A DNA stretch of 36,128 nt, taken from assembly GCA_021647505.1 (NCBI GenBank), contig JAKIUN010000039.1, positions 1-36,128 of the forward strand, given 5' to 3'. The DNA is from Gammaproteobacteria bacterium. GTDB lineage: Bacteria > Pseudomonadota > Gammaproteobacteria > SZUA-152. The position numbers were made by a program, and so were the translations under genes. Under the pieces are notes generated by a model. The model searched no databases. It worked only from the letters and a program-made list of their open reading frames with translations, and was not told where the DNA came from. Shown piece after piece: positions 4,441-34,729 of this stretch. The stretch's first letter is position 1. Each line of letters starts with the position of its first letter.

Positions 4441-5481
4441 TCACCCATCCTCGAGCTTGAGTCCCTCGGCCAGCTGCGCACTGAGATTATCGATGTCCAG
4501 CACCGCACACATCTGTTCCACGGCGGTTCCGGCCAACCAGGGGCGCTTGCCACGCTCACCGCGCCAACGCACGCCATCGGGCGACAGCGTCAATACCTGG
4601 GCAATGGCATCGACGGCCAGGCCCCACCGGCCAGCGTCAATGAGCACCACATATTTCACCCGTTCCAACACCGGACGGGCATCGGCAATACGCCCGTCGG
4701 GCATGATGATCTGTGCCGTGTCGATGATGCGCACATTCTGTCCACGGTTGGGTAGCAGACCCATGAACCAGTCGGCATAGCCCGGCAGCCCGGTGAGTTC
4801 ACCCGGCCACTCGACGATGCCGTGCAGCCGTTCCAGCGGCGCGGCCAGAGTCAGCCCGGCCACTGTAAAGGTCAGGCACTGGAAGCTGTCACTGGCCCAG
4901 GAGGGTGCCTCGGCCTTCACCACGGCTCTGCGGCGGGGCTCTACCACTGGCTCATCGATGCTGGCAGCGGACGATACTTCCGGGGCTGCCTGGAAGGTGG
5001 GCTGCCTGTCCGGCACGGCTGCCGGGGCTGCTTCGGCCAGCGGAATGGGTTCTGCCGGCAGCGACGGTACAGGCACCACCGATGGCTCGGCCTGCCGTCT
5101 GTCCCGCGTGTTTTCCGGCACCGTCCCGACGTCGGGATGCTCCATGAGTAAGTGGGGCAGCAATGACGGCCCGACAAGGAGTGGCAATACCCGATCAGGC
5201 TCCACAAAGGGACGGGACATCACGGACTGCTGCACGGCCATTTCCTGCCTTGAAACGGGAACCAGCGGTGACGCAGTGGGAGCATCGTCGACAGGGCGTG
5301 ATTCCGCAGGCGACGCACTGGTGGCGTCAGCACTGACACCAACGGAGGTTTCAGTGGAAGTCTCAAGAGGGGCTGCCTCCGGCACCTCCGCAGGAAGATC
5401 CATCAACAGGGAGTCCAGATAAAAACCCAGCGCCTCCTGTGGCTCGGCGAGAGAGGATGAATCCGGGCGCTTGCCAACCAT
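4441..5481 (-). CDS. parP: ParP-like CheW-domain protein of polar chemoreceptor arrays
   Basis: The 346-residue product has a long Pro/Ala/Ser-rich, probably disordered N-terminal part (about residues 15-200) and a CheW-like domain from about 205 to 340. That domain begins S-F-Q-C-L-T-F-T-V-A-G-L-T-L-A and contains P-G-Y-A-D-W-F-M-G-L-L-P-N-R-G. In Vibrio and Pseudomonas, ParP joins the ParC ATPase to CheA and the receptor arrays at the cell pole through its C-terminal AIF domain. The start ATG overlaps the parC stop (TGATG), and the order motC-motD-parC-parP supports the call. cheW, the usual next gene, is missing: accessory DNA begins 17 bases after the stop. Confidence 0.85.
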   Translation of the reverse strand: MVGKRPDSSSLAEPQEALGFYLDSLLMDLPAEVPEAAPLETSTETSVGVSADATSASPAESRPVDDAPTASPLVPVSRQEMAVQQSVMSRPFVEPDRVLPLLVGPSLLPHLLMEHPDVGTVPENTRDRRQAEPSVVPVPSLPAEPIPLAEAAPAAVPDRQPTFQAAPEVSSAASIDEPVVEPRRRAVVKAEAPSWASDSFQCLTFTVAGLTLAAPLERLHGIVEWPGELTGLPGYADWFMGLLPNRGQNVRIIDTAQIIMPDGRIADARPVLERVKYVVLIDAGRWGLAVDAIAQVLTLSPDGVRWRGERGKRPWLAGTAVEQMCAVLDIDNLSAQLAEGLKLEDG

Positions 5482-6299
5482 CAGCGCACCGCAGCTACCG
5501 GCACCGCCCCCGGCCCGGCCACACTGTGCGTACCATCGGCGAGCAGATCCTGCATCAATCCGGCATAGGCGAGCGAACCGCGATCCTTTGGCGCCTTGAG
5601 AGTCAGCGGTATGCCCAGGCGACTGGCCTCGCGAAACTGGGTATCAACCGGAATCACCGAACGCCAGAGATGTTCGGCAAAGCGCTCACGCAACAGACGC
5701 AGGGTGCCGGTGGAGGCGCGGGTGCGTGGATCGTACATGGTGGGAAGTATGGTGTAGGCCGGTACCTTGTGGCGTGCGCGCTGGATCATTTCCAGGGTAC
5801 GCAACATGCGCTCCAGCCCCTTCACTGCAAGAAATTCCGTCTGCACCGGAATGATCAGGTGTTGGCAGGCCGCCAGGGCATTGATCATCAGCACCCCCAA
5901 CTGTGGCGGGCAGTCGATGAGCACGAATTCATAACGATCAGCCAGCCCATGCAAGGCCTGAGTGATCACCAGTCCCATGCCGTCGGTGGCCCCCAACTGG
6001 CGATCCAGGGTCGCCATCGCCGTGGCGGCGGGAATCATATCCAGATTCTCAAAGCCGGTGGAACACACCACCCGCGCAGGCGACAGCGCCTGAGCCGATT
6101 TTTTGGCCTGAAACAATTGATATAGACTGCTCTCCTGCGTATCCGGGTCGAGGCCAAAATAGGCCGACATGGAGCCGTGGGGATCCATGTCCAGCAACAG
6201 GGTGCGATGCCCGTCACGCGCCAGCACACCTCCCAGGTTAACCGCCGTGGTGGTCTTGCCAACACCACCTTTCTGATTCGCCACCGCCCAGATCTTCAT
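5481..6299 (-). CDS. parC: ParC-like ParA-family ATPase for polar chemotaxis arrays
   Basis: The 272-residue product starts with the deviant Walker A motif K-G-G-V-G-K-T-T at residues 10-17, then D-M-D-P-H-G-S at about 37-43 (switch I) and L-I-D-C-P-P-Q-L-G (Walker B/switch II). It lacks the DNA-binding N-terminal extension of chromosomal ParA. In Vibrio, ParC places new chemosensory arrays at the pole together with ParP. Its position between motD (ATGA overlap) and parP (TGATG overlap) is the conserved one. The C-terminal tail (after about residue 250) is Gly/Ala/Pro-rich and not conserved. Confidence 0.88.
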   Translation of the reverse strand: MKIWAVANQKGGVGKTTTAVNLGGVLARDGHRTLLLDMDPHGSMSAYFGLDPDTQESSLYQLFQAKKSAQALSPARVVCSTGFENLDMIPAATAMATLDRQLGATDGMGLVITQALHGLADRYEFVLIDCPPQLGVLMINALAACQHLIIPVQTEFLAVKGLERMLRTLEMIQRARHKVPAYTILPTMYDPRTRASTGTLRLLRERFAEHLWRSVIPVDTQFREASRLGIPLTLKAPKDRGSLAYAGLMQDLLADGTHSVAGPGAVPVAAVR

Positions 6300-13235: not shown

Positions 13236-14108
13236 TTACTGGCCTAGGTTTTGCTGACTGGCCATGATCAGCTGTTCAACGAAAAACTCGAGCTGCCCGC
13301 CAGCCGATGCCGGTACGGGCCAACTATCGGCTTTACTGGCCAACTTCTTAAATGCCAGTGCCGACTTGCTTCTGGGATAGGCGTCCACCACCGCGCGCTG
13401 TTTCTGTACTGCCTTGCGCAGATACTCGTCCTCGGGAACCACACCCATGAAGTCCAACGCCACGTCCAGATAACGATCCGTGACTTTGAGAATTTTGTTG
13501 TAGAGTGCCCGCCCGTCCTGCACGCTCTGCACCCGGTTGGTGAGCACGCGGATGCGGCAGATGCCATATTCACGGTTGAGCAGTTTGATCAGTGCGTAGG
13601 CATCGGTGATGGAGGCCGGTTCGTCGCAGACCACCACAATCACCTCCTGTGCCGCCCGCGAGAAGGTCACCACGTTATCGGAGATACCGGCAGCGGTGTC
13701 GATGAGCAGTACATCCGGGGTCACGCTCAGCTCACTGAAGGCGCTGATGATGCCGGCATGTTCCGCACTGCTCAGCCCGGCCATGTTCTGCAGGCCCGAG
13801 GAGGCCGGCACAATGCGCATACCCTGTGGCCCGGTGCAAATGACCTCTTCCAGAGTGCGCTCACCCTTCAACACATGGGACAAATCATAATGGGTGTGCA
13901 AGCCCAGCATCACGTCTACATTGGCCAGGCCCAGGTCGGCATCCAGCAACAGCACTTCCTTGCCCTGTGCGGTGAGGCTCAGCCCCAGATTGACCGTCAC
14001 GTTGGTCTTACCCACCCCACCCTTGCCGCTGGCGACGGTAATAACGCGTACCGGCCGGGGTGTGGTAATGCGGCGCAGACCGGCCGCCTGATCGAGTGCT
14101 TCAGCCAT
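13236..14108 (-). CDS. flhG: Flagellar number regulator FlhG (FleN), MinD-family ATPase
   Basis: About 290 residues from the ATG at 14108, which overlaps the 3' end of flhF by 8 bases; an ATG two codons upstream is an alternative. The frame stays open further upstream inside flhF, but the family start fits M-A-E-A-L-D-Q-A. It has the deviant Walker A S-G-K-G-G-V-G-K-T-N, L-L-L-D-A-D-L-G-L-A-N-V-D-V, and L-L-I-D-T-A-A-G-I-S. In Pseudomonas FleN restrains FleQ and keeps flagella to one; FlhG also stimulates the FlhF GTPase. The C-terminus is the usual amphipathic, membrane-targeting type region. Confidence 0.94.
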   Translation of the reverse strand: MAEALDQAAGLRRITTPRPVRVITVASGKGGVGKTNVTVNLGLSLTAQGKEVLLLDADLGLANVDVMLGLHTHYDLSHVLKGERTLEEVICTGPQGMRIVPASSGLQNMAGLSSAEHAGIISAFSELSVTPDVLLIDTAAGISDNVVTFSRAAQEVIVVVCDEPASITDAYALIKLLNREYGICRIRVLTNRVQSVQDGRALYNKILKVTDRYLDVALDFMGVVPEDEYLRKAVQKQRAVVDAYPRSKSALAFKKLASKADSWPVPASAGGQLEFFVEQLIMASQQNLGQ

Positions 14109-15459
14109 GAGCATTTGCCACCATCCCACTAAAAGCCAGATTAAGTGATTCCTGTTCCAGGCCCTGACTGGTCTGTTGCGCCACCAGTACTGCACGGTTG
14201 ACCAGGGTGTGGGCACGGGCAATATGAATATCTTCCGGTACCCGCTGGCCATCGCTCATATAGGCCACCGGCAGATTGTTCTCCATCACCGTGGAAAGCG
14301 TGCCGCCAAGGCTGGTGGTCTCGTCCATCTTGGTGAGGATGCAACCATCCAGGCGCACCTCCTTGAAGGCCTTTACTATCTCGCGCAAACCGGCACGATG
14401 GGTGTTAGTGGACAACACCAGATAGGTGCGGATAATCGACGCACTGCCGGTAATCATCGAAAACTGTTCGGACAGACGCACATCACGCTGGCTCATGCCG
14501 GCGGTATCGATAAGGATCAGTTCCTTGTCGACGAGCAGCTTCAGCGCCTCCGTCAATTCTTCGCGGGTATTGGCAATGCGCACCGGAATATTCAGAATGC
14601 GGCCATAAGTACGTAACTGTTCGTGAGCGGCGATTCGATAGCCGTCGGTGGTGATCAGCGCCACCTTGTCGCGACCGTGGCGCAGGGCATAGCGCGCCGC
14701 CAGCTTGGCGATGGTGGTGGTTTTGCCGACACCGGTGGCGCCCACTAAGGCCACCACACCCCCTCCATCGAGGCTGTCGGCGGTGTCCAGCGGCACACGG
14801 CTGGCCAGCCAGGCCAGGGCATGACGCCAGACGTTGTCGAAGTCGTCGTGGCCACTGCCCACCTCGTCGGCCACCTGTTGACACAGGGCCGGGCTCAGGC
14901 CCAGCTCTAGCAGGCAGCGGATCAGCTTGGCCTGTAAGGGGTTGCGATGTGACAGGTCGCTCCAGGCGAGGCTGGAGAGCTGTTGTTCGAGCAGGCCGCG
15001 CAGATCCTTGAGTTCGTTCTTCATCTGTTGCAGGATCGGATCCTGCGACCATTCCACCGCCGGCACCGGGCGCGCACTCGGTGTCGTGGCCTTGCGACGC
15101 GGCGGCTCGGCAGGTATTTCCGGGCATGGGATCTCGCTGTCACGCGGCGACTCGGCAGACGCTACATAGGCCTGACGCCCGCCAGCCGGGCGGCTGAGAC
15201 TGATGGTATCCTCGCTCAACAGATCCGCGACAGGTTCACTGGCCAATGCATCCTGTGTCGGGCCGGTGTCCAATAGGCCGTTGCGGGTCGCCGACTCCTC
15301 GGCAGCCAGCAGGGCCTCGTCATAGTCGATGGCGGCAACGATCTCGATGCCACCCACCACCTTCTGGTTGGAGAGAATCACCGCGTCGGCGCCGAGGGCC
15401 TCGCGCACCTGGCGAATCCCCGTCCGCATATCTTTGGCAAAAAAACGTTTGATCTTCAT
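14101..15459 (-). CDS. flhF: Flagellar placement GTPase FlhF (SRP-type)
   Basis: 452 residues. The N-terminal basic B-domain start K-I-K-R-F-F-A-K-D-M-R is followed by a variable Pro/Ala-rich stretch (about 90-150). The NG domain (about 180-445) contains G1 L-V-G-A-T-G-V-G-K-T-T-T, D-G-Y-R-I-A-A-H-E-Q-L, L-I-D-T-A-G-M-S-Q-R-D and the specificity motif T-K-M-D-E. FlhF marks the polar site of flagellar assembly and works with FlhG. It begins 56 bases after flhA. Confidence 0.95.
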   Translation of the reverse strand: MKIKRFFAKDMRTGIRQVREALGADAVILSNQKVVGGIEIVAAIDYDEALLAAEESATRNGLLDTGPTQDALASEPVADLLSEDTISLSRPAGGRQAYVASAESPRDSEIPCPEIPAEPPRRKATTPSARPVPAVEWSQDPILQQMKNELKDLRGLLEQQLSSLAWSDLSHRNPLQAKLIRCLLELGLSPALCQQVADEVGSGHDDFDNVWRHALAWLASRVPLDTADSLDGGGVVALVGATGVGKTTTIAKLAARYALRHGRDKVALITTDGYRIAAHEQLRTYGRILNIPVRIANTREELTEALKLLVDKELILIDTAGMSQRDVRLSEQFSMITGSASIIRTYLVLSTNTHRAGLREIVKAFKEVRLDGCILTKMDETTSLGGTLSTVMENNLPVAYMSDGQRVPEDIHIARAHTLVNRAVLVAQQTSQGLEQESLNLAFSGMVANAHG

Positions 15460-24706: not shown

Positions 24707-25780
24707 TTAGCCCTTCAACTGTTGCAGGATATGCCCCGGAATCTTAGTCAGGGAAAGCACGCTGTCCACGCAGCCCAGCTTGACCGCCTCGCCCGGCATA
24801 CCCCACACCACACTGCTCTTTTCATCTTGAGCGATGGTCGGCGCGCCAGCCTCCTTCATTTCCTGCATACCCCGCGCACCATCGTCACCCATACCTGTCA
24901 GCAGCACGGAAATGGCGTTCGAGCCCACATTTTGCGCCACCGAGCGGAACAGGACATCCACGGACGGTTTGTGCCGGTTGACTGGCGGGCCATCGTTGAG
25001 ACGACAGATATAACGTGCGCCGTCCCGTTCCACCAGCAGATGCTGGCTGCCGGGAGCGATATAGGCATGACCGGTGACAATCTGCTGTCCGTCTTCGGCC
25101 TCACAAACCGTCATTGCCGAAATACCGTTCATGCGTTTGGCAAAGGGGGCGCTGAAGGCCTCTGGAATATGTTGTGTAATCACCGTCCCCGGCGTATCCG
25201 CTGGCAGACGCATGAGCACTTCCTTGATCGCCTCGGTACCGCCCGTCGAGGCGCCAATGGCAAGAATGCGGTCGGTGGTGCGAAAATGAATGCTGGCTGA
25301 CACCTTGCCAAGCACCGCATCCGCCGAGTGTCGTTCCGACCTGTCATCGGCTGAACTCCGCGTCAGGGCCTGCACCCGGGCACTGGCCGCCGTGCGCACC
25401 TTGGTAATAATCTCTTCGGCATAATCGTCCAGGGTGTGGGCGATATCTGTCTTCGGTTTTGACACAAAATCTACCGCACCCAACTCCAGTGCCTGAAAAG
25501 TAATATCGGCGCCTTTCTCCGTGAGGGTCGAGACCATCACCACCGGCATGGGGCGCAGCCGCATAAGATTACGCAGGAAGGTCACGCCGTCCATGCGTGG
25601 CATCTCCACATCCAGCGTCAGTACATCCGGCTTCAGCGACTTGATACGCTCGCGCGCCACAAAGGGATCTTGTGCGGTACCAACGACCTCGATATCCGCT
25701 GCAGAATTCAGCATCTCGGTCAACACCTGCCGCACCAACGCCGAATCATCGACGATCAGTACCTTGATTTTCCTGTCCAT
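24707..25780 (-). CDS. cheB: Chemotaxis methylesterase CheB (second cluster)
   Basis: 357 residues. The receiver has [12 protein letters not shown] and phospho-acceptor Asp in [13 protein letters not shown] linker of about 40 residues follows. The esterase domain contains [19 protein letters not shown] and T-G-M-G-D-D-G. It should demethylate the cluster's own soluble receptor. It is distinct from the CheB of the flagellar cluster and lies downstream of cheD after a 250-base gap holding a pseudogene remnant. Confidence 0.95.
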
Positions 25781-26033: not shown

Positions 26034-26681
26034 TTAAAACAGATCGATTTCGCCACTGGCCGGCTGTTGGTCGATCTGTTTCATATAAGCCGTTTCACGC
26101 TCGGCCACGGTGCGGTTGTGCATGTTGCGTAATTTCTTTACTCGCACTAAACCGGTATAGGGGTGAAACAATACCTTGCGAGGATAGATATCACCCACAT
26201 CTTCGGCCACCAGTTTCAGCCCTTCGAGACGCAGATATTCTTCGACGAAACGAATATTTCGCTCCCCCACATTACTGCTCATGGTCTTGCTTAACACCTT
26301 GCCACCACCAAATATTTTTACTTCCAGATTCTTACGCGAGCCGCCGTGCTTGAGAATTTCGTTAATCAATAGTTCCATGGCGTAATTGCCATAACGGGTG
26401 GAAAGACCGCCATCCGAGTCCCAACTGCCACTACCGGAGGACAAGGGCAGCATAAAGTGATTCATGCCGCCGACCTTGAAAATGGGATCATGCACACAGG
26501 CCGAGACACAAGAACCCAGCACCGTGGTGATCACCTCATCCTCGGTAGTCACATAGACCTCGCCAGGCAGGATTTTGGCCGCGTATTTATCGTTAGTTTT
26601 ATCCCAGTAGCGTTTGATTCCTTCGAAACCATCCAGGGCTGGCAGCATATCGCCGGGTGCTTTTGTTTTCGGCAAGGCCAT
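26034..26681 (-). CDS. cheD: Chemoreceptor glutamine deamidase CheD
   Basis: About 215 residues from the ATG at 26681 with GAGAGG upstream. An ATG 14 codons earlier would overlap cheR by 32 bases and has no better site. The catalytic Cys is in V-L-G-S-C-V-S-A-C-V-H-D and the His in G-G-M-N-H-F-M-L-P. R-Y-W-D-K-T-N-D-K-Y-A-A-K-I-L-P-G-E-V near the start is typical for the proteobacterial family. It deamidates Gln on receptors to create methylation sites. It follows cheR by 10 bases. Confidence 0.94.
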   Translation of the reverse strand: MALPKTKAPGDMLPALDGFEGIKRYWDKTNDKYAAKILPGEVYVTTEDEVITTVLGSCVSACVHDPIFKVGGMNHFMLPLSSGSGSWDSDGGLSTRYGNYAMELLINEILKHGGSRKNLEVKIFGGGKVLSKTMSSNVGERNIRFVEEYLRLEGLKLVAEDVGDIYPRKVLFHPYTGLVRVKKLRNMHNRTVAERETAYMKQIDQQPASGEIDLF

Positions 26682-26691
26682 GACGTCCCTC

Positions 26692-27558
26692 TCAATAGAC
26701 TTTGCGGTAGATGGTTTTGCCAATCAGCTTGAAACGGTCACTGACTTTAAACAGGGATTCCGAGTGACCGATGAACAAATGCCCGCCCACCGGCAATAAT
26801 TCGGCATAGCGATCAAACAGCACCTTCTGCGTCGGCTTGTCGAAATAGATCACCACGTTGCGACAAAAAATAAAGTCCAGTGGCCCACTGATAGGCCACT
26901 CTTGCATTAAATTCAACTGCCGAAAGGCGATCAACTCACGCAACGGCGGACGCACCTGCACCATGCCCTCATTATCCGCCTTGCCGCGCAGAAACCAGCG
27001 CCGCAAACGTTTGGGAGAAATACCGTTGACCCGCTCCTGGGTGTAAATACCGCGCTGCGCCGTGGCTACCACATCGGAATCGAGATCGGTGGCCAACAGG
27101 CGGACATCCCAGCCCTTTTCCGGCAGGGTCTCACGCAACACCATGGCAATGGAATAGGGTTCCTCGCCAGTGGAACAACCCGCAGACCAGCAGCGCAGGC
27201 GACGATCCGCCTTGTCCTGCATCAGCTCTGGCAACAGGGTGTCGCGCAAATAATCGAAGTGATGATTTTCGCGAAAAAACGAGGTGAGATTGGTGGTGAT
27301 GGCATTGGTGAAATTTACCAGCTCGCCATCATCCCCCGCTTTCAACAAATTACAATAGTCAGCGAAGTGCTCCTGCCCCAGCTGTCGAAGGCGACGGCTG
27401 AGTCGGCTGTAGACCAGGTTCCGTTTGGCATCATTAAGTACGATACCGGTCTTTTCCGCCACCAGTTGACGGATGAATTCAAAGTCACCATCGGTGAACA
27501 CGAATTCGCGTTCACCTTGCGATACTCTTTCCCGGCGAGCCAGGTTGGCACTGGACAT
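26692..27558 (-). CDS. cheR: Chemoreceptor methyltransferase CheR
   Basis: 288 residues. The helical N-terminal domain (about 15-95) has F-E-F-I-R-Q-L-V-A-E-K-T-G-I-V-L and L-T-S-F-F-R-E. The SAM-binding domain (about 100-285) contains C-W-S-A-G-C-S-T-G-E-E-P-Y-S-I-A-M, L-A-T-D-L-D and F-C-R-N-V-V-I-Y-F-D. It methylates receptor glutamates. The receptor encoded just upstream ends in E-W-E-E-F, so this CheR is expected to tether there through its beta-subdomain, as P. aeruginosa CheR2 does with McpB. Confidence 0.95.
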   Translation of the reverse strand: MSSANLARRERVSQGEREFVFTDGDFEFIRQLVAEKTGIVLNDAKRNLVYSRLSRRLRQLGQEHFADYCNLLKAGDDGELVNFTNAITTNLTSFFRENHHFDYLRDTLLPELMQDKADRRLRCWSAGCSTGEEPYSIAMVLRETLPEKGWDVRLLATDLDSDVVATAQRGIYTQERVNGISPKRLRRWFLRGKADNEGMVQVRPPLRELIAFRQLNLMQEWPISGPLDFIFCRNVVIYFDKPTQKVLFDRYAELLPVGGHLFIGHSESLFKVSDRFKLIGKTIYRKVY

Positions 27559-27582: not shown

Positions 27583-30114
27583 TCAGAACTCTTCCCACTC
27601 GCCGTCGCCATCCGCCGCAGGGCGTGGAGATGGAGCTGGGCGGGCGCTGGGACGCGCCACCGGGGCGGGCGCCGGTTGGCTCACGGCCTGCGCCTGTTGC
27701 ACACGTGGCACCGCCGGGGTCGCCGGCTGTACCGCACCGTCGTTGATACGGAAGAAGGCCATACGCTGGCTCATGTCACGTGCCTGATCATCGAGGGATT
27801 CAGCTGCCGCTGCAGCCTCTTCCACCAACGCGGCATTCTGCTGAGTCACTTCATCGAGCTGGGTGATTGCTTTGTTCACCTGCTCAATGCCGATGGATTG
27901 TTCCTGACTGGCAGCGGCAATCTCGGCGACGATGTCGCTCACCTTTTTTACCGACCCAACAATTTCAGTGAGGGTTTCGCCAGAGCGATCCACTAGTTTG
28001 CTGCCCTCGCCAACCTTTTCCACACTGTCACTGATCAATGACTTGATTTCCTTCGCCGCCGAGGCACTGCGCTGGGCCAGGTTGCGCACCTCGGAAGCCA
28101 CGACCGCAAAACCACGACCCTGCTCACCGGCCCGGGCGGCCTCTACTGCGGCATTCAGCGCCAGCAGATTGGTCTGGAAGGCGATCTCATCGATGACGCC
28201 AATGATATCGGCAATCTTCTTGCTGGAGCTGTTGATTTCGGCCATAGCATTGACAGCCTTCTGCACTACCTCACCACCCTGCTCCGCCTGATCGCGGGCA
28301 CCGTTGGCCAGCTGGTTGGCCTGGCGGGCATTGTCGGCATTCTGCTTCACCGTGGAAGTCAGCTGTTCCATGCTGGAAGCGGTCTCTTCCAACGAGGAGG
28401 CCTGCTCCTCGGTACGCTGACTGAGGTCGGTATTGCCCTGAGAGATTTCACTGGCCGCCGAGGTGATACTCTCGGTGGCGACACGAATACCGCCCACGGT
28501 CTCCTGTAAATTATTGACGGAGGCATTCACCGCATTACTGAGCACGGCAAATTCACCCTGATACTCGGTGCTGGCCACTTCCGTCAAATCGCCTTCGGCC
28601 AGGCGGGTCATGACGCTGGAGATATCGCTGATCGGTTCAACGATGGCATCCAGCATGCTGTTGATGCCCTCGGACAGGGTACGAATAAAACCTTGATAGT
28701 GTTCCACATCCAGCCGCTGGCGCAGATCACCATGGGTGGCGGCCTTGATTAATTCCGCCAGCGCGCGCTCGGCTGCCTTTTGCTCAGTGATATCGCGCCA
28801 TTCCACCATATTGCCCATGTACTTGCTCTGACCATCGAGTACCGCCGTGGCGTTTACCTCGAATTCCAGATCAGCCACCTTGATTTCAGCCTTGGCTGGC
28901 AGACGTGAGGGATCGCCCAGCAGGGCACGCTGGTGAGCCGGGTTTTTGTGAAATATATCGATATTCGTGCCCACTAGATTGTGGGCATCAAAGCTGGGGA
29001 AGCGTTTTCGCAGCACATCCTGACGCGCCGCCATCATTCTTACCACTGCCGGGTTGACATAGGTAATATTGAGGTCTTCATCGCACAACATGAGATTGGA
29101 TTGCGAACCATCGACGGCCGACTGCAGTCGCTCCACCTCACGCGCCGCCATGCGCTCCTCGGTGACGTCCTTCCACTGCACGGCATAGCCAAGGTGGCGG
29201 CCGGCGGCATCGGTGAGGGGCCGGGTCTGGTGTTCAAAGATGAAACGGCCAGGGGTGATCTCACCGTGGCGTACATCGTCCGGGCCCATGGCATGAAGGA
29301 TGCGTTTGATGACCTCGGGATCCTTGTGGTAGCGATGGATGCTGCCACCCACCACCGAGTCGACACTAAAGCCCGGCAGGTATTGGGTCAGCTCGTCCTC
29401 TACCGAACTCAACGTATCAAGCGCCTGCTTGTTGATGAAAATGATATTCTCATCAGCATCGGCAATCATGATGTTAATGGGTGAATGTTCAAGAATCGCG
29501 TACATCGCCTCCAGGCTGTTGAGGGCCTCACTGCTGCCCATCACCGATTCCATTTCCTTTTTACTTGCTGCCATCGTCTTCTCCTCCAGGACTTCGTCCG
29601 CTGACAGCATGGTAGCCGCCACGGTATTCAGTGCATTACGCCAGGCATCCGCGACCTTATCGGTCCACAGATCACCGGCAAATTCCGCCATCACGTCGAG
29701 CAATGTCTCCGCTACCGCCGTGTAGTGTTCCTCTTTTGCCCCATAGGCATGGTGCTTTTCGCCCAGCTTCAGCAGGGTCTTGCGCAGCTGGGCCGGGCGA
29801 CGCAGGCTGTTGACCACCAGTTGCAAGGCTGCCAGCAGTTTTTTCTGCTGTTGCAGCGGATCGGTATTGGCGAACATCGGTCGCACCTCGGGAAAGCGCG
29901 CGAATAATTCTTCGTAGAAACGCGCCACCAAAGCTTCGCCTTGCGGCGCCAGAGCGGCAAAAGACTCTTCCAGCAGGGCGACCTTCAGACCGTCACGCCG
30001 CTGGCGACGGGGCTTGAGTTCACTCACCTCTGTGGCCGTGCTGTCCGGCACATCCTCTTGTTTCATCCATGCCAGTGGGTCACCACCCATGGGGCTTTTC
30101 CTGCGCGTCGCCAT
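27583..30114 (-). CDS. Soluble chemoreceptor with globin and two PAS domains
   Basis: 843 residues and no membrane segment, so cytoplasmic. Residues 45-170 resemble the globin of flavohemoglobins and Vitreoscilla hemoglobin. Tyr67 in R-F-Y-E-E-L-F-A fits B10, Phe81 in V-R-P-M-F fits CD1, Gln90 fits E7 and His121 in E-K-H-H-A-Y-G-A fits the proximal F8. PAS domains follow at about 200-315 and 323-445, then a HAMP-like stretch (about 455-520) and the signalling coiled coil (about 525-790) with the tip I-D-E-I-A-F-Q-T-N-L-L-A-L-N-A-A-V-E-A-A-R. The Pro-rich tail ends in E-W-E-E-F, a CheR-tethering pentapeptide. The basic N-terminus (T-R-R-K) could contact the neighbouring ParA. Confidence 0.9.
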   Translation of the reverse strand: MATRRKSPMGGDPLAWMKQEDVPDSTATEVSELKPRRQRRDGLKVALLEESFAALAPQGEALVARFYEELFARFPEVRPMFANTDPLQQQKKLLAALQLVVNSLRRPAQLRKTLLKLGEKHHAYGAKEEHYTAVAETLLDVMAEFAGDLWTDKVADAWRNALNTVAATMLSADEVLEEKTMAASKKEMESVMGSSEALNSLEAMYAILEHSPINIMIADADENIIFINKQALDTLSSVEDELTQYLPGFSVDSVVGGSIHRYHKDPEVIKRILHAMGPDDVRHGEITPGRFIFEHQTRPLTDAAGRHLGYAVQWKDVTEERMAAREVERLQSAVDGSQSNLMLCDEDLNITYVNPAVVRMMAARQDVLRKRFPSFDAHNLVGTNIDIFHKNPAHQRALLGDPSRLPAKAEIKVADLEFEVNATAVLDGQSKYMGNMVEWRDITEQKAAERALAELIKAATHGDLRQRLDVEHYQGFIRTLSEGINSMLDAIVEPISDISSVMTRLAEGDLTEVASTEYQGEFAVLSNAVNASVNNLQETVGGIRVATESITSAASEISQGNTDLSQRTEEQASSLEETASSMEQLTSTVKQNADNARQANQLANGARDQAEQGGEVVQKAVNAMAEINSSSKKIADIIGVIDEIAFQTNLLALNAAVEAARAGEQGRGFAVVASEVRNLAQRSASAAKEIKSLISDSVEKVGEGSKLVDRSGETLTEIVGSVKKVSDIVAEIAAASQEQSIGIEQVNKAITQLDEVTQQNAALVEEAAAAAESLDDQARDMSQRMAFFRINDGAVQPATPAVPRVQQAQAVSQPAPAPVARPSARPAPSPRPAADGDGEWEEF

Positions 30115-30157
30115 TGATTATCTACCCCTGGTTATATTCATCATGCATGGACTGATT

Positions 30158-30295
30158 TTTGCCACGGAGCCACAGAGGACACAAAGCCAAAAAAATCATA
30201 AGAAAATACTCGCCGCCTGTATCACCGGATACGGAAAAAAATTGTTACTTTTATCCATAAATTTTTCTCCGTGTCCTCCGTGTCTCTGTGGTAAA
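30158..30295. mobile_element. MITE-like palindromic element upstream of the receptor gene
   Basis: Inverted ends of 29 bases lie at 30158-30186 and 30267-30295, with several mismatches. The left end reads TTTGCCACGGAGCCACAGAG and the right end is its near reverse complement ending CTCTGTGGTAAA. The CACAGAG-ACAC-GAGGACAC pattern belongs to a widely dispersed intergenic repeat type. The remaining intergenic bases (30115-30157 and 30296-30380) show nothing recognisable, and no terminator hairpin other than this element is seen. Confidence 0.6.
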
Positions 30296-30380
30296 TATAT
30301 CCATAGCAAACACAACCGCTAGCCATTCCAGCAAGAGCTGGAAAAAATACTGATAATCAGCTGCAAAGTCGTTTCGGATA

Positions 30381-31139
30381 TCAATGCCATTGTGACGCCA
30401 CCATTTCCTCTGCCAGCTGGCGGTAATCCTCGGCACCGTGGCTATTATTCTGATATTCAAAAATGGTTTCACCAAAGCTGGGGCATTCGGCCAGTGCCAC
30501 GTTTTCACGGATTGCGGTATCCAGCAGTCGATCCTGAAAATGTTCCGCAAGACGCTCACGCACTTCACGCGCCAGACGGCGCTGGGTATGAAAACGGGTC
30601 ATCACCACCCGGCGCGGCAACGGCCGGCGCAGGGTCTCTTCAACAAAACTCAATGTTTCCATAAAACGCGACAGACTGTGTAGCGCGAGATAGTCGCTGG
30701 AAACAGGAATCAACAATTCCGAGGCCGCAAATAAGGCATTCATACCCAACAGACCAGCCGACGGCGGGCAATCGATAATCACCACATCGTAGCTTTCATC
30801 ACAGGCATCGAGGGCCGTACGCAAACGCATGCCGCGTGCCTTGCCACCTTCGCTGAGATGTTCGACATTCACCAGGCCACGGCCGGCCGGCACCAGGTCG
30901 AGTCCATCACGGGCGTTCAACCGATAGTCAAGCAGAGACGCGCCTTCAAGCAACACCGCATCCATACCTGGCGTTGCCGCATCGACACCCAGCGCCGTGG
31001 TTAGGTGAGCCTGGGGATCCAGATCCAGTGCCAGCACCCGTTGCTTGCCCAGCGCCAAGGCGTGAGCAAGGTTGACGGCGGTGGTCGTCTTGCCCACCCC
31101 TCCCTTTTGATTCATGACAGCGATCACTCTGGCGTCCAC
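30381..31139 (-). CDS. ParA-family ATPase of a chemosensory cluster (PpfA-like)
   Basis: 252 residues. The deviant Walker A K-G-G-V-G-K-T-T is at residues 12-19, D-L-D-P-Q-A-H-L-T at about 39-47, and I-I-D-C-P-P-S-A-G-L-L-G-M-N-A-L follows. No DNA-binding N-terminal domain is present. It lies directly after cheW (1-base gap) and before the soluble receptor. In Rhodobacter sphaeroides the ParA homologue PpfA sits in a chemotaxis operon and splits the cytoplasmic TlpT cluster between daughters. The same role for the soluble array here is inference from the neighbours. No parB gene is seen. It is distinct from the ParC at 5481. Confidence 0.85.
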   Translation of the reverse strand: MDARVIAVMNQKGGVGKTTTAVNLAHALALGKQRVLALDLDPQAHLTTALGVDAATPGMDAVLLEGASLLDYRLNARDGLDLVPAGRGLVNVEHLSEGGKARGMRLRTALDACDESYDVVIIDCPPSAGLLGMNALFAASELLIPVSSDYLALHSLSRFMETLSFVEETLRRPLPRRVVMTRFHTQRRLAREVRERLAEHFQDRLLDTAIRENVALAECPSFGETIFEYQNNSHGAEDYRQLAEEMVASQWH

Positions 31140-31140
31140 A

Positions 31141-31668
31141 TCATTCGTGTTCGATGGCGTTGTCCATCACCGCCAGCTCACCACTATTGAGCAGGTGGTC
31201 AATGTCGAGAATAATCACCATGGTCTCGTCCACTGTGGCCAACCCCTGTACAAAATCCACATTGACCACACTGCCAAAATCCGGCGCCGGCTTGAGTGAT
31301 TCATCCTGCACGTTGTAAACATCGGATACCGCATCCACCACAATACCCATCACCCGACTCTTGCCTTCACGCATGACTTTAAGCACGATAACCACGGTCA
31401 TGGGGCCATATTCCATCGGTTCCAGGCCGAAGCGGCGGCGCAAATCGACAATCGGCACGATGGTGCCTCGCAGGTTTATCACACCGCGGATGTATTCCGG
31501 GGTGTTGGGAATCGGCGTTACCGCATTCCAACCCTTGATCTCCTGTACCCGCAGGATGTCCACGCCATATTCCTCACCAGCAAGAAGAAAAGTGAGAAAC
31601 TGACTGCCATCCACTTCGCCGGTAGCGGCCAGCCCGCTGGCGACCTGTTCTGCTACATCCATCTGCAA
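31141..31668 (-). CDS. cheW: Coupling protein CheW (second cluster)
   Basis: 175 residues, one CheW domain with short extensions. Motifs are F-L-L-A-G-E-E-Y-G-V-D-I-L-R-V-Q-E-I, P-E-Y-I-R-G-V-I-N-L-R-G-T-I-V-P-I-V-D-L-R-R-R-F and V-V-D-A-V-S-D-V-Y. It links receptor tips to CheA. It is the only free-standing CheW in the window: the flagellar cluster has lost its own at the parP end. It lies between cheA and the ParA-type gene. Confidence 0.95.
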   Translation of the reverse strand: MQMDVAEQVASGLAATGEVDGSQFLTFLLAGEEYGVDILRVQEIKGWNAVTPIPNTPEYIRGVINLRGTIVPIVDLRRRFGLEPMEYGPMTVVIVLKVMREGKSRVMGIVVDAVSDVYNVQDESLKPAPDFGSVVNVDFVQGLATVDETMVIILDIDHLLNSGELAVMDNAIEHE

Positions 31669-31699: not shown

Positions 31700-33769
31700 T
31701 CATGCCGCAGCATTGCTCGCGCGCTTATAACTACCATTCTGCGACAGCTGAATAATGCCGTCGATATCGACGATCAGCGCCACGGTGCCGTCACCAAGGA
31801 TGGTGGCGCCGGAAATGCCCCCCACCTTTTTAAAATTGGTTTCCAGACTTTTTATCACTACTTGTTGTTGGGCCAAAAGGTCGTCCACTAACAGACCGGC
31901 CTGCTGGCCGTGACCTTCCACCACCACCAGCAGGCCGTCTTCCAGGTTAAGACTGTCCGGTTTCAGACCGAAGGTCTCGTAGAGACGGATGACGGGCAGG
32001 TAATCGTCACGTAGCTTATACAGCTCGGCACTACCGGCAATGGCATTGACCCGCACGGGCTCTACCTGCAGGGATTCGATGATGGAAACCAATGGAATAA
32101 TAAAGGTCTGTTCACCCACACGTATCAACTGGCCGTCGAGAATCGCCAGGGTCAGCGGCAAACGGATGGTAAATGTGGAACCATTGCCCGGACGCGATTC
32201 CACGTCGATGGCGCCACCCAGCGCAGTGATATTACGCTTCACCACGTCCATGCCCACACCACGCCCGGAGACGTCACTAACTACATCGGCGGTGGAAAAT
32301 CCGGGCTGAAACAGAAAATCAAATATCTCGGCATCGCTGAGATTGTCATCGCTGTTGGCAAGGCCCCGCTCAATAGCCTTGGCAAGGATGCGCTCACGGT
32401 TGAGGCCGGCGCCGTCATCGCTGATTTCAATGAGGATATTGCCGCCCTGATGATAGGCATTGAGATGTACCGTGCCAGTCTCAGACTTGCCGGCAGCAAG
32501 GCGTTTCTCAGGAGTTTCAATGCCATGATCGACGGCGTTGCGTACCAAATGCACCAGTGGATCGCCGATCTTTTCCATTACCGTCTTGTCCAGCTCTGTC
32601 TGCTCTCCGGACATTTTCAATTCAATTTTTTTCTCCAGCTTTCCGCATAAGTCATGCACCATGCGCGGGAAACGATTAAAGGCGAAACTGATCGGCATCA
32701 TGCGGATACTCATGACGTTTTCCTGCAGCTCACGCGTGTTGCGTTCGAGCTCCGCCAGGCCGTCCTTGAGACGTTCCACCTTATCCATACTAAAGTCTTC
32801 ACCCAGCTGACCTAACATGGACTGGGTAATCACCAATTCGCCCACCAGGTTGATCAGTGCATCCACCTTGTCGATACCGACGCGAATAGAGGAATTTTCT
32901 GACGAGCTGCGCTTCTTGCGCCGATCACCCTGCCGGCGGTCATTATCACTACGGCGTTCCTGTGCCACTGGTGCAGCCTGCACCGGCGTGGGGTTGATTT
33001 CGGCCTCTGTCGTCACGCTCTCCGCAGGCATGTCCTCAAGTGCCTTTTCATCGCCGAGCGGCGTGATACTCAATTCACAATCACCATCCACCCACTCGAA
33101 CACTTCATCGATCTGCTCACGATCGATGCTGCCGTTCAGGCTGACCTCCCAGCTCAGGCAGGCTTCCTCGGGCTCCATATCCACCAAGGCAGGCAGACCT
33201 TCCAGGTTTGCCTTCGGAATCATCTCACCCATATCGGCCAGTTCGCGGAACAGACGCACCACATCGTTGCCAGAGCGCAACATATCGGGAAAAGGTTTAA
33301 AGACAATTTTCCAGCCGCTAGCCGCCGACATGCTGTCTGGAGTCTCCGTTTCGGCCTCGGCTGGCACAGCGGCTTCCGGCGTCGAACCCAGCATGCGATC
33401 CAACCCGGCCTTGACCTCGGCAACCTGTTCAAGGTTGATCTCAAAGCCTTCCTGCGCCCCGGCCAGCATGTCACGGATGCAGTCCACAGAACTGAGAAAG
33501 AGATTAATGGCCTCCTGGGTAACCTCACGCTCACCGGCACGAATCTGATCCAGCAGAGTTTCAACAACATGGGTGAAGTTGCTGATATCGCTGAAGCCAA
33601 AGGTGGCGCTGCCGCCTTTGATGGAATGTGCGGCACGGAAGATGTTGTCAACTTCCTCGGCATCGGCCAGGCCGGGTTGCATTTCCAGCAACACCGCTTC
33701 CATAATGTCCAGCCCCTCCAAACTTTCTTCGATGAAGGTGGCTTTGAACTGTTCCATGTCAATGGACAT
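31700..33769 (-). CDS. cheA: Chemotaxis histidine kinase CheA (second cluster)
   Basis: 689 residues. The HPt domain has H48 in R-A-A-H-S-I-K-G-G. A P2-like domain (about 155-250) begins W-K-I-V-F-K-P-F-P-D-M-L and contains V-F-E-W-V-D-G-D-C-E-L. P3 starts R-V-G-I-D-K-V-D-A-L-I-N-L-V-G-E-L-V-I-T-Q. P4 carries L-V-H-L-V-R-N-A-V-D-H-G-I-E, S-D-D-G-A-G-L-N and G-R-G-V-G-M-D-V-V-K. P5 ends the protein. Compared with CheA1 it has a folded P2 and lacks the repeated E-F-x-A-L-L-D-Q-L helices, so the two kinases may discriminate between their CheY partners. Confidence 0.95.
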   Translation of the reverse strand: MSIDMEQFKATFIEESLEGLDIMEAVLLEMQPGLADAEEVDNIFRAAHSIKGGSATFGFSDISNFTHVVETLLDQIRAGEREVTQEAINLFLSSVDCIRDMLAGAQEGFEINLEQVAEVKAGLDRMLGSTPEAAVPAEAETETPDSMSAASGWKIVFKPFPDMLRSGNDVVRLFRELADMGEMIPKANLEGLPALVDMEPEEACLSWEVSLNGSIDREQIDEVFEWVDGDCELSITPLGDEKALEDMPAESVTTEAEINPTPVQAAPVAQERRSDNDRRQGDRRKKRSSSENSSIRVGIDKVDALINLVGELVITQSMLGQLGEDFSMDKVERLKDGLAELERNTRELQENVMSIRMMPISFAFNRFPRMVHDLCGKLEKKIELKMSGEQTELDKTVMEKIGDPLVHLVRNAVDHGIETPEKRLAAGKSETGTVHLNAYHQGGNILIEISDDGAGLNRERILAKAIERGLANSDDNLSDAEIFDFLFQPGFSTADVVSDVSGRGVGMDVVKRNITALGGAIDVESRPGNGSTFTIRLPLTLAILDGQLIRVGEQTFIIPLVSIIESLQVEPVRVNAIAGSAELYKLRDDYLPVIRLYETFGLKPDSLNLEDGLLVVVEGHGQQAGLLVDDLLAQQQVVIKSLETNFKKVGGISGATILGDGTVALIVDIDGIIQLSQNGSYKRASNAAA

Positions 33770-33834: not shown

Positions 33835-34287
33835 TCATTTCCCACCATCAAAAAAACCACCCAGTGCCTTTTTCAGCCAGCTCTTTTTCCTGTTCAGAAC
33901 TTCATTGGCATAAGGCACATAGTGCCGATCTTCATTTTTGATGTGGTTGGTCAGCCATATCTGCAACTCCGACATGAGCTTTCTGGTAATATCCCGGCCT
34001 TTTTCATGCTCTTTCTTGTAATTCTTGATGTGCGCTATAAATGATTCATGAACCTTTTTATGTGAGTCTGAGAGCGGGTATCCCGCCTGGGTCATTAGGT
34101 CTTCTTCAAAGGCAAAATGGGTGACGGTATAATCAACCAGGCCCATTAAAGTCTGCGTTACCTTGTCATGATCATGGTTCGAGTGAGCCTCATGCAGATC
34201 GTTGATATAATCCACGATGCGCCGATGCTGTCCATCGATGATGTCGATCCCTATTTCGAGAGCAGAATCCCAAACCCAATAACTCAT
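33835..34287 (-). CDS. Bacteriohemerythrin within the chemotaxis operon
   Basis: 150 residues with a full di-iron ligand set: H21, H57, E61, H76, H80, H115 and D120, in the usual H-x3-E, H-x3-H and H-x4-D spacing. It starts M-S-Y-W-V-W-D and ends with a basic tail (N-R-K-K-S-W-L-K-K). Hemerythrins bind oxygen reversibly and may sense it, buffer it or deliver it to methane or respiration enzymes. Here it sits between cheY and cheA, spaced by about 80 and 65 bases, and so probably serves or protects the same oxygen-linked pathway. Confidence 0.93.
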   Translation of the reverse strand: MSYWVWDSALEIGIDIIDGQHRRIVDYINDLHEAHSNHDHDKVTQTLMGLVDYTVTHFAFEEDLMTQAGYPLSDSHKKVHESFIAHIKNYKKEHEKGRDITRKLMSELQIWLTNHIKNEDRHYVPYANEVLNRKKSWLKKALGGFFDGGK

Positions 34288-34366: not shown

Positions 34367-34729
34367 CTATCCCATCACCTTTTTGATGGTCGCCAACAAC
34401 TGTTCCGGGTTAAAGGGCTTTACGATCCACCCCGTTGCACCGGCGGCCTTGCCTTCCTGCTTCTTACCCATACCACCTTCGGTGGTCAGCATCAGGATCG
34501 GCGTAAACTTGAAGGCCGGCAGGGTGCGTAATTCGCGGGCCAGGGTGATACCATCCATGCGCGGCATATTGACGTCCGACAGCACCAGATCGAATCGCTG
34601 CCGTTTGGCCAGATCCAGAGCCGCCTGTCCGTCGGCCGCTTCCGTGACCTGATGCCCGGCGCCCCTGAGGGTAAATACCACCATCTGCCGCATTGAGGCG
34701 GAATCATCCACCGCTAAAATATTCGCCAT
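34367..34729 (-). CDS. cheY: CheY-type response regulator (second cluster)
   Basis: 120 residues, single receiver domain with D8/D9, phospho-acceptor D52 in L-V-L-S-D-V-N-M-P-R-M-D-G, T in L-T-T-E-G-G and Lys in W-I-V-K-P-F. It differs from the switch-binding CheY of the flagellar cluster (no F-S-T-M-R-R). T-T-E-G-G and P-A-F-K-F-T-P-I-L-M-L are typical of the second-cluster CheY proteins. It may be a phosphate sink or may act on a non-motor target. Confidence 0.93.
   Translation of the reverse strand: MANILAVDDSASMRQMVVFTLRGAGHQVTEAADGQAALDLAKRQRFDLVLSDVNMPRMDGITLARELRTLPAFKFTPILMLTTEGGMGKKQEGKAAGATGWIVKPFNPEQLLATIKKVMG

Follow-up and report, generated by a model that had tools for sequence, protein, structure and literature searches.

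The window, the whole 36,128-nucleotide stretch of gammaproteobacterial contig JAKIUN010000039.1 analyzed here, encodes within a chemotaxis operon a ParA-family ATPase that we read as the positioning ATPase of an F7/Aer2 chemosensory array, with the peptide MGGDPLAWM in the tail of the adjoining receptor as its cargo handle. We give this reading a probability of roughly 0.6. It is built on patterns read directly from the sequences: the linkage of parA to the operon, a conserved motif in the partner protein, the strict tie of that motif to parA, its complementary placement on different host proteins, and parallel changes in the ParA pocket.

A ParA-Type ATPase in an F7/Aer2 Operon

All genes of the operon lie on the minus strand, in the order cheY (34367..34729), bacteriohemerythrin (33835..34287), F7-type cheA (31700..33769), cheW (31141..31668), parA (30381..31139), receptor (27583..30114), cheR (26692..27558), cheD (26034..26723), and cheB (24707..25780). 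The cheW gene is directly 5′ of parA at a distance of 1 bp, and 266 bp (30115-30380) separate parA from the receptor gene, a gene order that confirms the placement of parA between cheW and a soluble receptor gene by the initial annotation. The soluble, Aer2-class receptor comprises an N-terminal tail, a globin, two PAS domains, a HAMP domain, an MCP signaling domain, and a C-terminal EWEEF (27586..27600, minus strand). It has no transmembrane stretch, with a maximum 19-residue hydropathy of 1.26, and among NCBIfam models it matches that of Vibrio Aer2 best, at a score below the model cut-off. EWEEF satisfies the Aer2-like rule for a CheR tether, x-[HFYW]-x2-[HFYW] (PMC7184735). Gene order, the F7-type CheA, and a receptor with an aromatic pentapeptide make this an F7/Aer2-class chemosensory system. 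The F7/Aer2 systems of P. aeruginosa (Che2), V. cholerae (cluster III), and S. oneidensis (Che1) have the same order of Y-A-W-receptor-R-D-B, and their receptors likewise combine PAS/HAMP domains with a C-terminal aromatic pentapeptide. The window differs from these named systems in its receptor globin and in the addition of ParA and the motif, ParA being absent from the excerpted description of the F7 stages (PMC7184735).

Two further observations concern the operon itself. The bacteriohemerythrin gene between cheY and cheA is found in the genus of the window, and, taken with the globin of the receptor, is suggestive of an oxygen or NO input to this F7 system. The gap between parA and the receptor gene contains GAGACACGGAGGACACGGAG and, about 100 bp on, a partly complementary stretch. 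A search of this gap found no inverted repeat, and a repeat family was rejected because the word tested has a single occurrence in the genome.

The parA gene is a complete open reading frame with a GTG start and a 252-aa product that matches Pfam AAA_31 at 1e-42, with additional matches to CbiA, MipZ, and BcsQ. It retains a deviant Walker A motif (KGGVGKTT) and intact DLDPQ and IIDCPPS motifs, and its AlphaFold model (pLDDT 88.6) superposes on Soj/ParA structures with a TM score of about 0.9. With KGGxGK[T/S], the catalytic aspartates, and the Soj fold, the protein is a ParA/MinD-type ATPase, the third in the window as the initial annotation had counted. The other two are paralogues on the same strand, FlhG (13236..14252) and a ParC-type ATPase (5481..6299) that belongs to an F6 system outside the F7 system and is followed directly 3′ by the gene for its CheW-domain partner ParP (4441..5481, minus strand). 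The window ParA is 35% identical to this ParC, and its gene has neither the F6 setting nor the 3′ ParP of parC; no ParB or ParP-like gene lies beside it.

The family-level similarity of the protein, which reaches 39% identity to the Soj of its own genome, might suggest a chromosomal or plasmid ParA that came to sit in the operon by chance. We consider this highly improbable. The genome has an intact Soj-ParB locus on another contig, and the best plasmid match to the window ParA is at 43% identity, with plasmids yielding generic ParAs only. In a quick tree search, 66 che-linked ParAs form one side of a branch (SH-aLRT 96) that parts them from Soj and other ParAs; FlhG and ParC were left out of this final tree since in a first tree with them very long branches displaced rows. 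No close ParA was found in viral contigs, where the matches were distant ParAs only. The place of parA is also conserved over many families: it occupies the same operon slot in genomes of the same genus, in one or more further genera of the family, and in more distant gammaproteobacterial families, and genome contigs extend the linkage to Chromatiales, Methylococcaceae, Piscirickettsiaceae, Marinobacter, and Sedimenticola. A place kept across gammaproteobacterial families means that parA beside the receptor is more than chance. The initial annotation had named as contrary outcome a grouping with plasmid or chromosomal ParAs and a lack of linkage to soluble receptors in relatives; because the clade is separate, the linkage is present in relatives, and the best plasmid match stops at 43%, the opposite pattern was found.

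Of 369 evenly sampled gammaproteobacterial genomes, 38 have a che-type ParA (E ≤ 1e-60), and a score gap parts these from the genomes that have only Soj, which scores at most about 188 bits. F7-type CheA occurs in 92 of the 369 genomes, and 30 of the 38 ParA-bearing genomes are among those 92. In a phylum-wide profile search, a small number of genomes from a different class also gave high-scoring ParA matches; score alone does not part PpfA from Soj in that search. Some members of the ParA clade (loci L171/L195 and L179) have no che genes in the fetched stretch and are followed by a small motif-less STAS protein. At another locus (L066, 6747-7400; Marinobacter halodurans) parA is intact and the receptor that follows seems fragmented, a motif-like N-terminus lying in a different frame; the ParA system may be decaying there.

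A Conserved Motif in the Disordered Receptor Tail

The receptor tail (residues 1-44; 29983..30114, minus strand) is predicted to be disordered over residues 1-40 (pLDDT below 50) and precedes a globin domain that is predicted to be well folded (residues 65-169; 29608..29922, minus strand). Within the tail, residues 9-17 form the candidate ParA-binding motif MGGDPLAWM (30064..30090, minus strand). It is the window form of [ILM]GxDPLAW[ML], and over 82 distinct partners, comprising both receptor fusions and small proteins, the columns read [ILM], G (96%), x, D (96%), P (100%), L (99%), A (82%), W (95%), [ML], x, [DE].

The receptor begins with MATRRK, and the initial annotation had put forward this basic N-terminus as the peptide that stimulates the ATPase. 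One half of that proposal stands, in that the disordered N-terminus is the probable partner of ParA. The other half does not, as column counts over the 82 partners led us to reject a basic tail as the conserved element. Basic residues are usual upstream of the motif in receptor fusions, with a mean net charge of +2.6 over up to 10 residues, and the small partners have a mean of +0.3, with 54% being neutral or acidic in this region (for example, MATTEENDLIGYDPLAWMEAS). MATRRK is not the constant part because so many small-partner tails are neutral or acidic. Text searches for the letters of the motif, covering the running text of openly available papers, returned no relevant match.

The Motif Is Tied to parA

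A degenerate DNA pattern for the motif was run on the 369 gammaproteobacterial genomes with its reversed form as a control. The pattern gave 19 matches in 19 genomes and the control gave 0, and all 19 matches fall at the N-terminus of an open reading frame directly 3′ of a che-type parA. Comparison of F7 clusters with and without a linked parA, a check along the lines of that proposed at the outset, bears out the association: with near copies removed, the motif is present in 56 of 62 with parA and in 0 of 17 without it (Fisher 1e-12). When only loci with a globin-bearing open reading frame are counted, the figures are 27/28 and 0/8 (Fisher 3e-7); both p-values ignore descent, and the set with parA includes the loci where the motif was first seen. 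Eight of the 17 clusters without parA have a receptor with an N-terminal globin, yet none of these carries the motif. One of the parA-less loci (L209) keeps a decayed MNFDPLVSM. Another (L198), from the same family as the window and sister to its clade (99), has a receptor head that is 59% identical and lacks both parA and the motif. On a tree of CheA+R+D+B, used after a CheR-only tree proved too weak, there are four supported independent contrasts; joint change of motif and parA accounts for 3.7 of these and opposite change for none, four being too few to reach p < 0.05.

A few parA-linked loci have no recognizable motif (L065, L073, L099, L125, and L178). In one subgroup (L125, 5992-7689; L178, 2358-4036; L217, 3792-5489), parA is directly followed by cheR and the operon encodes no motif-bearing partner, which must then lie at another site or be missing.

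One Motif on Several Host Proteins

In many lineages the operon has the order cheY-A-W-receptor-W-parA-small protein-R-D-B. Its small protein, about 130-210 aa long, starts with the motif-bearing segment and also has a STAS domain (PF13466). The placement is complementary: in operons with the motif on the small partner, 0 of 35 receptor open reading frames carry it, including receptors with the same globin (L077, L081, L098, L181, and L183). A bridge between the two arrangements is provided by L181, in which motif, globin, and STAS domain are joined in one protein. Because the peptide occurs only with ParA and can sit on different neighboring proteins, it is probably the handle by which ParA grabs its cargo.

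The recurrence of STAS partners raises the alternative that ParA serves the output of the pathway, acting as a switch that sequesters or releases either the receptor or the STAS protein, an anti-sigma antagonist. Such a role would agree with the motif-bearing partner being a STAS protein in many lineages and with the association of F7 clusters with anti-sigma-antagonist genes (PMC7184735). In the lineage of the window, however, the partner is the receptor itself, and STAS proteins could equally be adaptors bound to the array. We therefore regard an output switch as quite unlikely.

Related peptides are also found outside the gammaproteobacteria. In a neighboring ParA group, the downstream open reading frames of Omnitrophota, TA06, and Pseudodesulfovibrio start with RLGSDPLSWI or RLGANPLEWV, and the Pseudodesulfovibrio protein has an Amphi-Trp domain. 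Degenerate forms occur on open reading frames downstream of other ParAs, among them a Nitrospirota protein with a CheW domain, and on proteins encoded next to parA in Acidobacteriota and Atribacterota. As judged from sequence, the motif reaches beyond chemotaxis. We tentatively suggest, at somewhat less than even odds, that [LIM]GxDPLxW[MLIV] is a portable cargo tag for a large non-ParB branch of ParA in many phyla. If this were true, the cargo of a ParA would be assigned by the fusion of one short tag.

Several individual loci in this survey have features of their own. At L108, L112, L129, and L130 (Omnitrophota, TA06, and others), parA is followed by proteins of about 100 aa that start KKxxRLGSDPLSWI. 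In a Latescibacterota locus (L109, 4700-6055), an open reading frame that overlaps the end of parA carries KKSRLGKDPLG close to its start and, on visual inspection, resembles a patatin-type hydrolase. In genome G056 (L049, 4389-6833), a CheA with a globin between its Hpt and dimerization domains (Pfam Globin 4e-19) adjoins parA and a motif-bearing receptor.

Peptide and Pocket Compared with ParA-ParB

The chromosomal ParA (Soj)-ParB pair offers a close reference. It shares with the window system the fold, the Walker motifs, and an N-terminal partner peptide whose hydrophobic residues follow the same register. The M. xanthus ParB helix that binds ParA depends on the hydrophobic residues L11, L15, L18, and I19, which occupy a ParA groove that includes L150 and L152, and stimulation of the ATPase requires ParB R13, a residue in contact with ParA Y81, E82, D110, and E117 (PMC12462528). 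The motif register [ILM]-G-x-x-x-x-A-W-[ML] fits the ParB helix at positions i, i+1 (Gly), i+6 (Ala), i+7, and i+8. The hydrophobic register and Ala are mostly kept, and the position of R13 is F/Y/A in the motif, so that, unlike in ParB, the central Arg/Lys is absent. On the ParA side, an alignment in M. xanthus numbering places Asp at the Y81 position in 58 of 63 clade rows; in these rows the D110 position is mostly R, K, G, or another non-acid, the E117 position is mostly L/I/V, and the L150 position is S/A/T in 63/63. In the window ParA, the L150 position falls in the segment encoded at 30741..30761 (minus strand), where the alignment has Leu changed to Ala. In contrast, Soj and most other ParAs keep the original residues at Y81, D110, E117, and L150. 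Peptide and pocket thus appear to differ from ParB-ParA in matching places, changes that would insulate the pair from the cell's own ParA-ParB. The change at L150 is not a simple counterpart to the Trp of the motif, because ParAs from other phyla with W-bearing partners keep Leu.

DNA-Binding Residues and the Location of the Array

ParA proteins usually ride the nucleoid. In the window ParA, the alignment gives Q and A as the equivalents of M. xanthus R209 and R238. Counterparts of these arginines are implicated in the DNA binding of Soj and PpfA (PMC7229837), and since both are replaced, nucleoid binding by the window ParA may be weak or absent. Other basic residues (RRLAREVR) lie near the lost arginine positions and could take over from them, and in the wider che-linked clade R209 is kept in most other members and R238 is lost in nearly all.

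These residues bear on a close described counterpart, PpfA-TlpT of Rhodobacter sphaeroides, which likewise pairs an orphan ParA in a che operon with a soluble receptor alongside and has no ParB. Che operons with ParA homologues were already described in 2010, and the count for PpfA homologues in such operons was 77 of 206 species (PMC2829493). By analogy, the window system may work like PpfA- and ParB-type systems, the likeness to PpfA being drawn from its published description. A full PpfA-type account, with nucleoid partition of a truly cytoplasmic array and the basic residues of MATRRK stimulating the ATPase as in ParB, seems unlikely to us. PpfA does act in this way with TlpT (PMC3964821, PMC5706961), the receptor lacks a transmembrane stretch, the tails of receptor fusions are usually basic, and charged, disordered partner N-termini are a general rule (PMC10241942). 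However, in 54% of the small partners with the motif, basic residues are missing or offset, the arginines that PpfA is reported to use for DNA binding, homologous to those of Soj, are replaced in the window ParA, and F7 arrays imaged so far are membrane-associated. Cryo-ET of four species, V. cholerae, P. aeruginosa, S. oneidensis, and M. alcaliphilum, shows F7/Aer2 arrays that are associated with the inner membrane and lie mostly at or near the pole (PMC7184735). Aer2 clusters of S. oneidensis are mobile along the cell (PMC9855816). The predicted cytoplasmic array, distinct from the polar one, is therefore not established, because the imaged F7/Aer2 arrays are associated with the inner membrane and often polar, and the DNA-binding arginines are replaced.

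The same images and the same replaced arginines would suit a ParC-like role, in which ParA would place the F7 array at the pole or at the inner membrane near the F6 array instead of distributing it over the nucleoid. The ParC-ParP system, known from Vibrio and present in the window as its F6 system, also employs a ParA-like ATPase to serve a chemosensory array. It differs in being another paralogue in another operon, with the CheW-domain protein ParP as partner and a pole landmark. The distance of the window ParA from ParC and the absence of a ParP-like neighbor argue against this role, as does the lack of a MinD-like membrane helix at the ParA C-terminus as inspected by eye, and we hold it to be as improbable as the PpfA-type account.

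Proposed Mechanism and Outlook

For the preferred reading, in which ParA positions the F7/Aer2 array through the receptor handle, we infer a cycle of binding, ATPase stimulation, and movement along a matrix. ParA-ATP dimers would load on a cell matrix, most likely the nucleoid, and the arrayed receptors would present many copies of the handle. The handles would bind a hydrophobic groove at the edge of the ParA dimer, the groove used by the N-terminal peptide of ParB, and bound ParA would hydrolyze ATP and then leave. The array would follow, or be spaced by, the resulting ParA gradient and so be shared between daughters. With a portable handle that sits on a small STAS protein in other lineages, either the receptor or its companion would be the cargo adaptor. 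McdAB and the other protein-cargo systems of A/D ATPases likewise have a non-ParB partner with a disordered N-terminal tail; their partners have no known sequence kinship to those described here, and the tail in the window is part of the receptor itself.

Although partner tails have been modeled in general as charged and disordered (PMC10241942), array recognition by an orphan ParA has so far been mostly a guess about charged tails. Within the searched literature, four points are new: the specific motif, how strictly it is tied to this ParA, its transfer between receptor and STAS proteins, and the corresponding changes of the ParA groove. A nine-residue putative handle tracks the ATPase genome by genome, changes its host protein, and pairs with a changed pocket. 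The motif gives a sequence route to the cargos of orphan ParAs, and both the choice of cargo and the insulation from the cell's own ParA-ParB would become testable with one short peptide.
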